Assembly (NCBI RefSeq): GCF_004028275.1 | Contig: NZ_CP035033.1 | Coordinates: forward strand, 868,001-932,000 | Direction: 5' to 3' | Length of the DNA: 64,000 nt | Source of the DNA: Hydrogenovibrio thermophilus | Lineage (GTDB): Bacteria; Pseudomonadota; Gammaproteobacteria; Thiomicrospirales; Thiomicrospiraceae | In this document: in pieces, positions 13,279 through 17,398 of the stretch | Layout: each line of letters begins with the position of its first letter | How positions within the stretch are numbered: position 1 is the stretch's first letter | Notes under the pieces: model-generated | Told to the model about the DNA's origin: nothing | Databases searched by the model: none | The model's input: the letters and a program-made list of their open reading frames with translations, nothing else | Made by a program: the position numbers and the translations under genes

Positions 13279-14214
13279 TTAAGCCGTTTGTGAGTTTTGG
13301 CGCAAGGCTTCAATATCCCGTCTCGGTGGCGCGCCGAACAGGCGACTGTACTCCCGGCTGAATTGCGAGGGACTTTCGTAACCGACCTGAAATGCGGCGC
13401 GTGCCGCTTCCATGCCTTCATTGAGCATTAAACGTCGGGCTTCATTTAAACGTAACCATTTTTGATATTGCAACGGACTTTTGGCCGTGAGTTGGCGGAA
13501 GTAGTGGTGCAGGCTGGAACTGCTCATTTGCACATGGTGCGCGAGTTCATCAATCCGAAGCGGTTGGGCGTAATTCAGTTTCAGCCAATCGATGGCGCTG
13601 GCAATCCGCTGGCTTTGACTGCCGACTGAAACAATTCGCCACAACCGTGGTGCCAAATCCGTTTGCAGTAAGCGGTAATGAATTTCCCGTTCAATCAGCG
13701 GGGCCAAAACAGTCATGTCGTCGGTGTGGTCCAACAAGGCCAGCAACCGCGTAAAGGGTTCCAATAATTCCGGGGTGACGGTTCCGAGAACAGCGCTGCT
13801 TTCCGCCGCATCGCCGCGTGGAATCGGCCGTTTGGTTTGTGAAATCAATTCCGCAATGATGCGCATATCGAGTTTTAAAACCAAGCCCAAAGAGGGGGTT
13901 TCGGGGCTGGCTTCCAGCACTTGTGAGCTGGCCGGCAAATCCAGTGAGGTTACCAGAAAGCGTTCGGTATTGTATTCATGCACATCGTCGCCAATCAACA
14001 TTTGTTTGGCGCCTTGCACCACGAGCACAATGCTCGGTTCGATCAAACACACACACGGATCCGAGGGCGCTTCCCGTCGGAAAAACGATAGATTGGGAAT
14101 CGCCGTCGGACAGTCTTCCTGATCCAGGGTCAAACGGTTAATCACCGCGGCCAGTTCATCATGCAATGCTTGAATGGCAGATGTGTTTGGTGTTTTGTTA
14201 TGTCCGGTTGTCAT
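13279..14214 (-). CDS. AraC family transcriptional regulator (YqhC-like)
   Basis: DNA-binding regulator of 311 residues. The N-terminal part (about 30-190) is the beta-barrel arm of the AraC type-N family. The C-terminal 100 residues hold two helix-turn-helix motifs, including IDELAHHVQMSSSSLHHYFR and the signature region ending QVGYESPSQFSREYSRLFG. It is divergent from the three-gene operon starting at 14424. E. coli YqhC, of the same architecture, activates an adjacent alcohol/aldehyde dehydrogenase gene, so control of the neighbouring ADH operon is a fair inference. The inducer is unknown. Confidence 0.88.
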   Translation of the reverse strand: MTTGHNKTPNTSAIQALHDELAAVINRLTLDQEDCPTAIPNLSFFRREAPSDPCVCLIEPSIVLVVQGAKQMLIGDDVHEYNTERFLVTSLDLPASSQVLEASPETPSLGLVLKLDMRIIAELISQTKRPIPRGDAAESSAVLGTVTPELLEPFTRLLALLDHTDDMTVLAPLIEREIHYRLLQTDLAPRLWRIVSVGSQSQRIASAIDWLKLNYAQPLRIDELAHHVQMSSSSLHHYFRQLTAKSPLQYQKWLRLNEARRLMLNEGMEAARAAFQVGYESPSQFSREYSRLFGAPPRRDIEALRQNSQTA

Positions 14215-14295
14215 GGCATTTCTCCCATTTATTTCACTTCATACGATACCGTTTCCTATAGTGCGTTGTCGAATACCAATTTAATTTTCTGGTGG

Positions 14296-14318
14296 ATTAG
14301 GCAAGAAATTTGCCTAAT
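14296..14318. promoter_or_regulatory. Candidate operator between the regulator and the ADH operon
   Basis: Perfect 9-bp arms ATTAGGCAA and TTGCCTAAT around GAAAT, roughly mid-way in the 209-bp divergent spacer. A looser pair GATACC/GGTATC flanks it at about 14245 and 14354. It is a plausible binding site for the adjacent AraC-type protein; only the symmetry is seen directly. Confidence 0.5.
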
Positions 14319-14423
14319 TAATATACCTTTTAAGGTGGGTTTCGATGCAATATGGTATCCAACACTTAAGTTATCTTTGGCTGAGAAGAGCCGAGTGTCG
14401 CAGTTTTAGGAGTGAGTGGTGAG

Positions 14424-14887
14424 ATGACAAGGTTATTGAAAAAAGCCTATGGGGGTTATTGGCATTAATGACCCACGCCGCTTTTGCACAAAACGAGGCC
14501 ACATCCATGGAAAGAGAGTCGTTTATGAAAATACGCCTGGTGGTGGAAAATGCCGTGGTGGAAGCCACCTTGGATGATAACGCGACCAGTCGGGATTTTG
14601 CGGCGATGTTGCCATTGGATGTGACCTTGTCTGATTACCATCAAACCGAAAAAATCGCCGATTTGCCGTCGACCTTGTCGACGGATGGCGCGCCGGACGG
14701 TATCGACCCAGCCATTGGTGACATCACTTATTACGCGCCCTGGGGCAATCTAGCAATTTTTTACCGAGATTTTGGTTATGCGCGAGGCCTGGTTCGCCTT
14801 GGGCGCATCGATTCCGGCATTGAAACGCTTATTCAACAAGGTGAGTTGCGCGTGCGAATTGAACGTGTTCAAGACGATCCGGACTGA
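14424..14887 (+). CDS. exported cyclophilin-like protein, readable only with a -1 shift
   Basis: ATG 14424 follows AGGAG but reaches a stop at 14466. If the ribosome or polymerase slips by -1 at the run AAAAAAG (14439-14445), the frame continues as MTRLLKKS-LWGLLALMTHAAFAQ, a textbook signal peptide, and on to 14887 (154 residues). The mature part (SFMKIRLVVENAVVEATL..., then DITYYAPWGNLAIFYRDFG) resembles small cyclophilin-like beta-barrel proteins often encoded beside oxidoreductases. Alternatives are a real one-base deletion (pseudogene), a sequencing error in the homopolymer, or a cytoplasmic form starting at ATG 14525 behind GGAAAGAGAG. The next two genes also encode exported proteins, which supports the signal peptide as original. 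Confidence 0.7.
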
Positions 14888-14942
14888 TTAAAGTCAGTCC
14901 GGACAGAACGTAATAAGTTTCAACTAGGAAGGAGAGAAGGAT

Positions 14943-16100
14943 ATGCAGACTCGACCATTTTTCAGAGCGTTTTTGATTGCGCTTAAGAGCAGTTTCGCCA
15001 CACTCGGCTTTGCGCAAAGCGATCTCCCGCAAAACCAGGCCCAGACCCTGTACCCGCTTGATACACAAGAGACCTTTAACGGCCCGGACGCTTACTTTAC
15101 CGGAGATGTGTCGGTGAAAATGTTGTTTCCCAACAACGAAACAGCACATTACTCCGGCGCTTATGTCACCTTTCAACCCGGTGCGCGAACCGCGTGGCAC
15201 CAGCATCCCGCCGGGCAGCATATGGTGGTGACGTCGGGCACGGCTTTGACCGGCACCCGAGACGGACAGGTGATAGCGTTTGAGAAAGGCGAAACCGTCT
15301 GGTGTCCGAAAGACATTGACCATTGGCACGGTGCTACGCCGGACGCGGCCATGACCCATTTGGTGGTGACGGGGAGTTTGGACGGTGAAAATGTGGTGTG
15401 GAAAGAAAAAGTCTCCGATGCCGACTATCAGTTGGCGGTGGCTGCCAATGTCTCCAAAAAACTGGATATTCAATCTTTGACGTTACAGCAGCAGGCGTTG
15501 GTACCGATTTCGGCCTTAACGGCCAGTGGGGATTTGACGGCCTTGGAAGCCGCGATGCAAGCCGGCTTGGACGCTGGGTTAACGGTGAATGAGATCAAGG
15601 AAATTCAAGTGCATCTCTATGCTTATGTTGGTTTTCCGCGCGCGCTGAATGGTATGGGGACTTTGATGAAAGTCGTCGAAGCCAGACGTACCCAAGGTAT
15701 TAAAGACCCGGTAGGTGACGCGCCCGGATCGATTCCAAAAGGGCAGACCAGCCGCGAGTTCGGTGAAAAAGTACAGACCGAATTGGTGGGTCACCCGGTG
15801 AGCGGGCCTTTGTTCGACTTCTCGCCGGCGATGAATGAGTTTTTACAGGCGCATTTATTTGGTGACCTGTTCGCACGCGGGATTTTGGATCACCAGGCCC
15901 GAGAACTGGTCACGGTGGCTGCTTTGGCTAATATGGACGGCGTGGAACCGCAGCTGAATGCGCATATCGGTATGGCGTCCAATGTGGGGTTAAGTCGACA
16001 GCAATTGCAGGATGTGGCCAGGGTGCTGAGTGCCCGTGTCAGCCGGGAAGCCGGATTAAGAGTCGACAACGCGTTAAAAGCGGTGCTTGCGAAGAACTAG
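14943..16100 (+). CDS. exported cupin / carboxymuconolactone decarboxylase-like fusion
   Basis: Product of 385 residues with three parts. The N-terminus (1-25) resembles a signal peptide ending FAQ, although a Lys at 14 weakens its core. A cupin barrel (about 55-140) follows, with metal-ligand candidates His86, His88, His127 and His129 and the motif FEKGETVWCP. Two CMD-like helical repeats (about 170-250 and 295-380) complete it. CMD-family proteins include AhpD-type peroxidase partners and decarboxylases; no CxxC is seen, so AhpD chemistry is unlikely. It lies between the cyclophilin-like gene and the ADH and is read in the same direction with short gaps. The reaction is unknown. Confidence 0.82.
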   Translation: MQTRPFFRAFLIALKSSFATLGFAQSDLPQNQAQTLYPLDTQETFNGPDAYFTGDVSVKMLFPNNETAHYSGAYVTFQPGARTAWHQHPAGQHMVVTSGTALTGTRDGQVIAFEKGETVWCPKDIDHWHGATPDAAMTHLVVTGSLDGENVVWKEKVSDADYQLAVAANVSKKLDIQSLTLQQQALVPISALTASGDLTALEAAMQAGLDAGLTVNEIKEIQVHLYAYVGFPRALNGMGTLMKVVEARRTQGIKDPVGDAPGSIPKGQTSREFGEKVQTELVGHPVSGPLFDFSPAMNEFLQAHLFGDLFARGILDHQARELVTVAALANMDGVEPQLNAHIGMASNVGLSRQQLQDVARVLSARVSREAGLRVDNALKAVLAKN

Positions 16101-16145
16101 CGGGTGTCTGAATGGAATTCAAAATCGGATAACAGGAGTCATGAA

Positions 16146-17312
16146 ATGGATAAGAAGAAAGGTCTGACCAGACGGGAATTTATTGAAACATCAACCATTG
16201 CAGGAGCCAGTCTTATGTTAGGAAATACACCAAATGCATCGGCCGCCGAAACACCGGCCAACCAAAACATTCCATCCAGAGGTTATGCCGCCACGGATGA
16301 GTCGGGCATTTTAACGCCTTGGGAGTTTGAACGTCGCCCGGTCGGTGACAATGACGTGCTGATTGATATCAAGTTCGCCAGCATTTGCCATTCCGACATT
16401 CACCAAATGAAAGGGCACTGGGGGCCACAACAGTATCCGCAGGTGCCGGGCCATGAAATCGTCGGGGTGGTGGCTGCCGTCGGTAAAAACGTCACCAAAT
16501 TTAAGGTCGGAGACCGTGCCGGGGTCGGTTGTATGGTCGATACCTGTCTGGAATGTGAGGACTGTAAGGGACAGGGCGAGCAGTACTGTCCGGAAACCAC
16601 CTTCACTTACGGCTATCCGGAAGAAAGTTCTCCGACGGGCATTTCTCAAGGGGGCTATTCCAATAACATCGTGGTACGCGATTATTTTGCGGTGCACATT
16701 CCGGAAAGCATTTCCTTTCAGGAAGCGGCTCCGTTATTGTGTGCCGGCGTCACCACTTATTCTCCGATCATGAAAGCCGAGTTTAAGAAAGGCGATAAGG
16801 TTGGGGTGGCCGGTATCGGTGGTTTGGGGCACATGGCGATCAAGCTGGCGGTGTCGAAGGGCGCGGAAGTTTATGCGTTTACCACCACGCCGGACAAAGC
16901 CAAAGATATTTTGGCGTTCGGTGCCAAAGAAGCCATTGTTGTGGACGATTTGCAGAAGCTGGCCCCTTACAAAGGGATGTTGGATTACATGATCACCACC
17001 ATTCCAGTGCAGTATGATGTGGCGGCCTACGCTTCAGTGGTGAAGCCGAACGGTTTCTATACCCAGGTCGGGATGCCGGAAGGGTTTGCGCTGACGTTAA
17101 GCGCGATTGGCATGTCGATTAACCGGGTGAATTTCAATGCTTCCTTGATTGGGGATATGAAAGAAACCCAGGATGTGGTCAATTATTGCGCCAATCACAA
17201 GATTTACCCGCAGATTGAAGTCATCAATGCCGAACAGGTGAATGAGGCCTGGAAAAATGTCGTGGACAAAAAAGCGCGTTATCGTTATGTCATTGATGCC
17301 GCGACGATTTAA
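16146..17312 (+). CDS. Tat-exported zinc-dependent alcohol dehydrogenase (YahK/CAD-like)
   Basis: Medium-chain dehydrogenase of 388 residues preceded by a twin-arginine signal: TRREFIETS at 8-16, a hydrophobic stretch and an ASA-A cleavage site near residue 33. The enzyme part keeps the catalytic zinc ligands Cys81 and His103 (GHE), the structural zinc cysteines 134, 137, 140 and 148, and the nucleotide site GIGGLGHMAIKLA, so it looks active. Cytosolic relatives reduce aldehydes with NADPH. I choose ATG 16146, 7 bases after AGGAG, over a GTG at 16104. A periplasmic location for a pyridine-nucleotide enzyme is odd; folding with bound cofactor before Tat export would explain it. Last gene of the operon. 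Confidence 0.88.
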   Translation: MDKKKGLTRREFIETSTIAGASLMLGNTPNASAAETPANQNIPSRGYAATDESGILTPWEFERRPVGDNDVLIDIKFASICHSDIHQMKGHWGPQQYPQVPGHEIVGVVAAVGKNVTKFKVGDRAGVGCMVDTCLECEDCKGQGEQYCPETTFTYGYPEESSPTGISQGGYSNNIVVRDYFAVHIPESISFQEAAPLLCAGVTTYSPIMKAEFKKGDKVGVAGIGGLGHMAIKLAVSKGAEVYAFTTTPDKAKDILAFGAKEAIVVDDLQKLAPYKGMLDYMITTIPVQYDVAAYASVVKPNGFYTQVGMPEGFALTLSAIGMSINRVNFNASLIGDMKETQDVVNYCANHKIYPQIEVINAEQVNEAWKNVVDKKARYRYVIDAATI

Positions 17313-17366: not shown

Positions 17367-17398
17367 ACAAAAAAAGCCCCGCAATGCGGGGCTTTTTA
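17367..17398 (+). terminator. Rho-independent terminator of the ADH operon
   Basis: AAAGCCCCGC-AAT-GCGGGGCTTT with flanking A and T runs. It is symmetrical enough to serve the convergent gene at 17429 as well. Confidence 0.88.

Follow-up and report, generated by a model that had tools for sequence, protein, structure and literature searches.

Accounts of how bacteria defend themselves against aldehydes usually concern the cytosol, the compartment in which the nicotinamide cofactor NADPH is made. Neither of the best-matching members of the YahK/CAD family of zinc-type alcohol dehydrogenases (ADHs), E. coli YahK (349 aa, aligned from residue 15) and the H. pylori CAD chain (3two, aligned from residue 3), has a leader, and the latter is reportedly, in the title of work by Mee et al. 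in 2005, an aldehyde dismutating enzyme. Here we analysed a 64,000-nucleotide stretch of the Hydrogenovibrio thermophilus genome (contig NZ_CP035033.1, positions 868,001 to 932,000; hereafter the window, whose own numbering is used throughout), in which an operon of three same-strand genes lies divergent from a gene encoding an AraC_N/HTH regulator. The last of the three genes encodes an ADH with the fold, catalytic-zinc residues and NADP loop of YahK and H. pylori CAD (41-42% identity over the mature part, 41% to YahK), but preceded by a predicted leader for the twin-arginine translocation (Tat) pathway. The locus therefore raises the question of how an enzyme from an NADPH-type cytosolic family, bearing a conserved tag for folded export, would work without freely available cofactor.

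Enzymes of other families offer partial answers. Zymomonas GFOR and the Caulobacter aldose-aldose oxidoreductase run a closed redox cycle on two substrates and contain no zinc, and export of GFOR reportedly requires, as a 1999 title by Halbig has it, both the twin-arginine motif and a signal that cofactor binding induces. Tat is described as the route for folded, cofactor-bearing proteins, and the GFOR-type enzymes are described as NADP enzymes with a Tat signal, like the window ADH, but as members of the Gfo/Idh/MocA family that act on sugars. Formaldehyde dismutase and the NDMA-dependent nicotinoprotein ADHs share the way of working that we propose below, in which the cofactor stays bound, but the long loop said to shield the NAD of formaldehyde dismutase (PMC8892092) is absent from the window ADH. 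Background on LuHNL and formaldehyde dismutase, on GFOR-type enzymes and on H. pylori CAD comes from PMC8892092, PMC4628093, PMC7317946, PMC2770041, PMC6222663, PMC4455696 and PMC11209023. On the side of the regulator, the E. coli YqhC locus is similar in having an AraC_N-type regulator divergent from an annotated NADPH-dependent aldehyde reductase (yqhD) and a methylglyoxal reductase (dkgA), but the E. coli stretch compared is devoid of cupin, cyclophilin-like and zinc ADH genes. YqhD itself belongs to a different ADH family. On our best reading, the window ADH would be a zinc-ADH counterpart of Zymomonas GFOR, which may provide the precedent for a prebound cofactor, recycling its bound cofactor on substrates of its own.

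A predicted Tat leader on a zinc alcohol dehydrogenase

The ADH likely starts at ATG 16146, behind AGGAGT, and not at GTG 16104; in the copy of a sister genome from the same genus (G009), one base differs at 16105. Read from the ATG, the N-terminus is MDKKKGLTRREFIETSTIAGASLMLG...ASAAE. This leader scored 21.2 bits against the NCBI TAT_signal_seq model TIGR01409 (cut-off 16.7), and TatC is encoded in the window genome and in all 23 of the other genomes tested, which were chosen among holders of the ADH. An earlier interpretation of the window (the sequence-only reading) had placed a Tat leader on an NADP-type zinc ADH and had named orthologues without the leader as an observation that would speak against it. 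We gathered relatives of the enzyme with six patterns, five of which lie within the mature part, so that the leader was hardly selected for.

A leader rule (R-R/K-x-hydrophobic, then a hydrophobic stretch free of charged residues) was applied to all 91 rows obtained. Fifty-two rows have at least 58% identity to the window ADH, counting a gene in two parts (L074) and a 3' fragment (L075), and 50 of them include the N-terminus; all 50 have a Tat-like leader (49 with RR, and L051 with RK), as against 0 of the 39 rows at 46% identity or less. The 50 rows correspond to 49 loci, L031 and L080 being one locus, and L066-L069 are near copies. In the split gene, L074:6001-7151 of a Helicobacteraceae metagenome-assembled genome (MAG), a leader-bearing ADH is divided between two frames. 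A scan with TIGR01409 (E ≤ 1) matched 33 of the 34 clade leaders scanned (from the 50 rows) and none of the 20 leaderless N-termini scanned (from the 39), the single miss being L051 with its RK in place of RR. PF10518 matched 17 of the 34 leaders, the window leader not among them. By eye, most of the 34 aligned leaders have retained a hydrophobic stretch, with small residues where cleavage could plausibly occur. With its score, the TatC genes and the conservation of the leader, the Tat assignment of the sequence-only reading is supported, and leaderless orthologues did not turn up among the close relatives. We regard Tat targeting of the zinc ADH as a well-supported prediction, from which actual export of the enzyme would follow.

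These Tat calls come from the TIGR01409 and PF10518 scans, with their control, and from the stricter rule; N-termini of partner proteins were judged by eye. A cruder signal-peptide rule was discarded as too lax, as it assigned a Sec signal to 154 of 323 unlabelled open reading frames (ORFs) and some leader to 5 of 26 proteins of the AraC_N cluster, and missed the leader of the window cupin.

The conserved core and spread of the leader-bearing clade

Residues are numbered for the 402-aa form of the ADH (subtract 14 for the ATG start). C95, H100, H117, E118, C213, G237/G239/G240/L241/G242/H243 and K265 are identical in 45/45 leader-bearing and 36/36 leaderless cores, and S97 is present in 45/45 and 35/36, respectively. 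C95, H117, E118 and C213 correspond to the catalytic zinc site of the family, and H100 is, matched by motif, the counterpart of liver ADH His51. Because the catalytic and NADP-loop residues are invariant, the hydride machinery has been kept. The catalytic zinc residues, the relay Ser/His, the GxGGLG loop and the later Lys identify the window ADH as YahK/CAD-type, and C148, C151, C154 and C162, which we take to be the structural-zinc cysteines of the family, are all present in it, in line with the earlier statement that both sets of zinc ligands are intact. The AlphaFold2 (AF2) model of the enzyme has a mean predicted local distance difference test (pLDDT) score of 83.7, low in the leader, and its nearest solved structure is that of H. 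pylori CAD with NADP(H) (3two). The window ADH fell short of the cut-offs of NF047908, for the NADPH-dependent aldehyde reductase Ahr (272 vs 470 bits), and, by far, of TIGR03989, for the NDMA-dependent nicotinoprotein ADHs (91 vs 440 bits). Over the whole gene, the rates of non-synonymous (dN) and synonymous (dS) change relative to G009 are 0.006 and 0.255.

In a tree of the cores, a branch with support 100/100 divides all 45 leader-bearing sequences from the others (left out of the tree and of the residue counts were L074/L074b, L075, L031 (= L080), L066-L068, whose cores are identical to that of L069, and the distant L008, L009 and L027). The same branch separates the clade from YahK and H. 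pylori CAD, relative to which it has fixed S93 (for G) and H105 (for E/D). Counted over the cores, S93 is present in 45/45 leader-bearing sequences and G in 36/36 leaderless ones, and position 105, which adjoins the conserved W106, is His in 44/45 of the former and acidic in 36/36 of the latter (E in 19, D in 17). A92, L293, V313 and A391 are further differences specific to the leader-bearing enzymes, and Q101, Q109, T165 and F167 are fixed only in them.

The 45 cores come from seven phyla (Pseudomonadota, Nitrospirota, Campylobacterota, Bacteroidota, Balneolota, Verrucomicrobiota and Calditrichota). Some forks of the tree mix phyla, for example one that joins Microbulbifer with two Campylobacterota rows (95/92) and one that pairs a MAG of Thermodesulfovibrio with a gammaproteobacterial one (95/76). 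Such forks suggest transfer or, alternatively, misbinned contigs. The closest relatives in the genome collection are those of G009 (99% identity) and of Thiomicrorhabdus strains (84% and 79%). Among 299 Pseudomonadota genomes sampled, with N-termini read for those matches that came with a locus, 48 had a match at E ≤ 1e-60, and, the window's own genome aside, all of the matches listed had at most 45% identity. Among 198 Bacteroidia genomes, 26 were matched at E ≤ 1e-80 (27 matches), and a Tat-type N-terminus was found only in the centre genome (G358). One plasmid match was obtained at E ≤ 1e-100, annotated 'NAD(P)-dependent alcohol dehydrogenase'. The leader-bearing type is rare and thinly spread. 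A literature search recognised no Tat-exported zinc ADH and no such gene set in titles and the starts of abstracts, with subscription papers mostly outside its reach, and is weak evidence of absence.

How the putatively exported enzyme might work, and alternatives

We propose, with a probability of roughly 0.45, that the locus was gained laterally and serves a response to carbonyls (aldehydes) under AraC control, and that its Tat-exported zinc ADH is preloaded with NADP(H) and turns over on the bound cofactor. The ADH would fold in the cytosol and acquire its NADP(H) and zinc there, Tat would export the folded, cofactor-loaded enzyme to the periplasm, and there it would use the cofactor that it carried. 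As the periplasm is not expected to contain free NADP(H), redox-neutral turnover would be the most likely way: the enzyme would oxidise an aldehyde hydrate or an alcohol and, in a dismutation or an exchange on that one bound cofactor, reduce another aldehyde, and a preloaded dismutase would have no need of free NADPH. The cupin/CMD partner may handle related hydroxy-carbonyl compounds. We infer cofactor retention, dismutation, an aldehyde substrate and the signal of the regulator, and with them the closed cofactor cycle; of the aldehyde/quinone theme suggested in the sequence-only reading, the aldehyde (carbonyl) chemistry is the part supported as likely. A broader proposal, which we advance more tentatively and with more doubt than confidence, is that this rare, widely spread clade is loaded with NADP(H) before export and forms a self-contained periplasmic aldehyde dismutase or carbonyl exchanger at the centre of a YqhC-like-controlled envelope aldehyde defence. 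If true, envelope carbonyl stress would be met with a carried cofactor, and a zinc ADH would join the few known Tat-exported nicotinamide enzymes. The Tat-led ADH provides a ready test of the link between Tat export and cofactor loading.

Several observations weigh against this proposal. No shielding loop was seen, and the bound cofactor might therefore leak; comparison of leader-bearing with leaderless enzymes revealed no cofactor-locking insertion, the differences within the fold being typically of single residues (residue 176 gained; the column after 163 mostly absent). The structural-zinc cysteines are relaxed in the leader-bearing clade, where C148, C151, C154 and C162 are found in 31, 36, 29 and 35 of 45 cores (a few of the absences being alignment gaps), compared with 35, 36, 33 and 33 of 36 leaderless cores. 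In the first 40 codons of the ADH, the comparison with the sister gave a dN/dS of 0.0395/0.0536, near neutral, to which we attached no weight because the sites are few and signal peptides drift. The cupins that adjoin leader-bearing ADHs in Alteromonas and Pseudoalteromonas have no leader, and several relatives have a cupin or cyclophilin-like partner without one; predicted export of all partners is common, not universal. Finally, a single Bacteroidia genome, G476, encodes two YahK-like zinc ADHs that belong to the leaderless branch (L139:458-1600(-) and L140:4529-5689(+)) but have Sec-type N-termini by eye and gave no match to the TAT model. A cofactor bound before export should not pass through Sec, and these enzymes would thus point to a periplasmic cofactor supply or a further partner; they suggest that the YahK-like ADH family gained export on more than one occasion, and in some cases by a route that carries no cofactor.

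The alternative that fares best, though we consider it unlikely, is that the Tat-like leader tethers the ADH to the membrane on its inner side, or that export is inefficient, and that the enzyme draws on the normal NADPH pool of the cytosol, where it works. The NADP loop is fully kept, relatives use free NADPH and some partner proteins are leaderless, all of which would be expected of such an enzyme, but most leaders retain the hydrophobic stretch and plausible cleavage site noted above, eight fused cupin-CMD orthologues have export-type N-termini (also by eye), and maintenance of the leader over seven phyla argues for its use.

Somewhat less probable is that the exported, NADP(H)-carrying ADH trades electrons with a separate periplasmic or membrane partner, such as a quinone, a cytochrome or a flavodoxin-like protein, with no closed dismutation. 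The Tat leader and the conserved NADP loop would also fit this alternative, and in G476 the Sec-led ADH of L140 has as neighbours a Sec-led alpha/beta hydrolase and two lipoprotein-like proteins, an FMN (flavin mononucleotide) reductase and a fusion of flavodoxin and aldo/keto reductase (AKR), the Sec-led ADHs of that genome adjoining a lipoprotein-like flavodoxin as well. However, the window ADH has no acceptor domain, and no electron carrier was found among the neighbour clusters labelled by reading, many neighbour ORFs being unlabelled.

We consider it improbable that the ADH is redox-dead and acts as a lyase with zinc and a fixed cofactor like flax LuHNL, which we take to belong to an ADH branch other than that of the window enzyme, with the operon processing cyanohydrins or similar adducts together with the cupin. 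The cupin part exceeds the NF049940 cut-off and matches 4bif and 4uxa, and LuHNL is described as a Zn-ADH fold with bound NAD acting as a cyanohydrin lyase; however, LuHNL has Leu for the general base His51 of ADH, whose counterpart H100 is His in 45/45 leader-bearing cores. Least probable by far is that the ADH is an ordinary cytosolic YahK-type aldehyde reductase whose start has been misread and whose leader is untranslated, since, although the GTG upstream of the ATG makes start calls ambiguous, the leader is in frame in 50/50 rows, AGGAGT is present and the TAT model matched 33 of 34 leaders.

Partner genes, control region and insertion site

The features of the locus are listed in Table 1. 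The products of the operon match Cyclophil_like2 (PF18050), Cupin_2 plus CMD, and ADH_N/ADH_zinc_N, and the regulator is 32% identical to E. coli YqhC over 288 aligned positions; together with its AraC_N domain, this similarity identifies it as YqhC-type and agrees with the sequence-only reading, which had described a YqhC-like AraC regulator divergent from cyclophilin-like, cupin-CMD and ADH genes. It is 95% identical to the G009 copy (dN 0.029, dS 0.288). Neither yqhD nor dkgA adjoins the window regulator, its neighbours being folD and the three-gene operon. The intergenic gaps of the operon are 55 and 45 nt, and one transcript is therefore likely. Promoter-like matches between 13150 and 17450 were at chance level (3, vs 4.4 in shuffles). 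A palindrome spotted by eye in the divergent region, TTAGGCAA...TTTGCCTAA, is disrupted in the alignment with the sister and was rejected. From its near-symmetric A/T flanks, we read the terminator-like stem as probably shared, closing the operon on the + strand too.

Table 1. Coordinates of features at the ADH locus (window numbering).
Feature	Position	Strand	Evidence and remarks
AraC_N + HTH_18 regulator, YqhC-like	13279..14214	-	PF06719 9.9e-48 (162 bits), PF12833 8.8e-21
Divergent control region, 209 nt	14215..14423	.	Single promoter-like match (14233-14262, +), at chance level
Original start of cyclophilin-like gene	14424..14468	+	ATG behind GGAG, out of frame with domain
Cyclophil_like2 protein	14459..14887	+	PF18050 5.2e-37; AF2 model pLDDT 90.9
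Cupin + CMD fusion	14943..16100	+	NF049940 ((R)-mandelonitrile lyase) 150 bits, cut-off 140, residues 40-163
Zinc-type NADP(H) alcohol/aldehyde dehydrogenase, Tat-led clade of YahK/CAD family	16146..17312	+	PF08240, PF00107
Predicted Tat leader of ADH, about 34 aa, TRREFIE ... ASAA	16146..16247	+	TIGR01409; end by eye; alignment of 34 leaders
Terminator-like stem, 12 pairs + T-run	17371..17397	.	Between ADH and converging DUF5610 gene; scan lists - strand

The cupin is the most specific partner of the leader-bearing ADHs. A cupin/CMD homologue lies within 1,200 nt of 38/46 leader-bearing and 5/33 leaderless ADHs, a cyclophilin-like gene of 15/46 and 3/33, and an AraC gene, a match that may include generic AraC proteins, of 10/46 and 11/33, so that an AraC regulator is common to leaderless ADHs as well; five Pseudoalteromonas loci in these counts are near copies. 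Within 4 kb, a range at which flanks were at hand for just one leaderless ADH and the counts stand without comparison, 40 leader-bearing ADHs are accompanied by cupin/CMD in 34 cases, cyclophilin-like in 23 and AraC in 23, with all three in 13, and the search for the gene trio suggested earlier thus did find recurring company. Other repeat neighbours, named by reading, resemble aldo/keto reductase, sugar O-acetyltransferase, alpha/beta hydrolase, SDR and DUF2255 proteins.

Both the NF049940 score and the metal motif (WHQHPAGQ...HWHG) assign the window cupin to this family of putative lyases. Its PDB relatives are 4bif and 4uxa, a cupin hydroxynitrile lyase presumably from Granulicella, with which the cupin part shares the HxHxxxQ...H motif; unlike that lyase, the window protein is fused to CMD and has an export-type N-terminus. 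We know of no natural role for the hydroxynitrile lyase cupin. The leader is weak (about 14943-15017, by eye; N-terminus MQTRPFFRAFLIALKSSFATLGFAQ), and the eight fused orthologues with export-type N-termini are L031, L037, L038, L040, L042, L043, L047 and L076; many Bacteroidota cupins resemble lipoproteins. In the cupin cluster (58 proteins, duplicates and near copies included), both halves of the motif are present in 49, HWH only in 3 and neither in 6. Relative to G009, the window gene has a dN of 0.025 and a dS of 0.305.

In a sample of 11 genomes of the genus, the DUF5610 gene directly follows folD in 8 (L144-L151). Four genes separate the two in the window and in G009, with prfB beyond; in G006 the downstream gene was unmatched, and G010 carries a leader-bearing ADH at another site. 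The simplest reading is that the genes were inserted in a common ancestor of G009 and the window strain, with loss elsewhere as the alternative, and the operon would then have been gained laterally.

In the window sequence, the leader of the cyclophilin-like gene is out of frame. Of the three export signals proposed in the sequence-only reading, those of the ADH (Tat) and of the cupin-CMD protein (weak) therefore stand, and that of the cyclophilin-like protein does not. The frame from ATG 14424 runs for 14 codons to TAA 14466-14468, and the window has one base fewer than G009 at 14444; in the sister (G009, L079), an extra G follows the A6 run, and MTGLLKKGFWGLLALVAHAAFAQNE continues in frame into the domain. 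The ORF listed from 14459 opens with TTG inside the would-be hydrophobic core. The broken frame ends in TAATG, in which the stop overlaps ATG 14468, in frame with the domain, and a ribosome could restart there. Translation of the protein perhaps begins at ATG 14468 or 14507, which would leave it with no working leader. The leader may thus have been lost in the window strain, the start may lie at 14468 or 14507, or the assembly may contain a base error. The domain itself is conserved (dN 0.021, dS 0.190 relative to G009), and among the other aligned relatives some have an N-terminal extension and some begin at the domain. A PDB sequence search with the protein gave no match at E ≤ 0.01. The closest solved fold to its model is TM1367 (1zx8), after which most of the next Foldseek matches are to the Pictet-Spenglerase KslB, with McbB lower, a likeness of fold only, of which we made no use. 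KslB joins an amine with a carbonyl compound.

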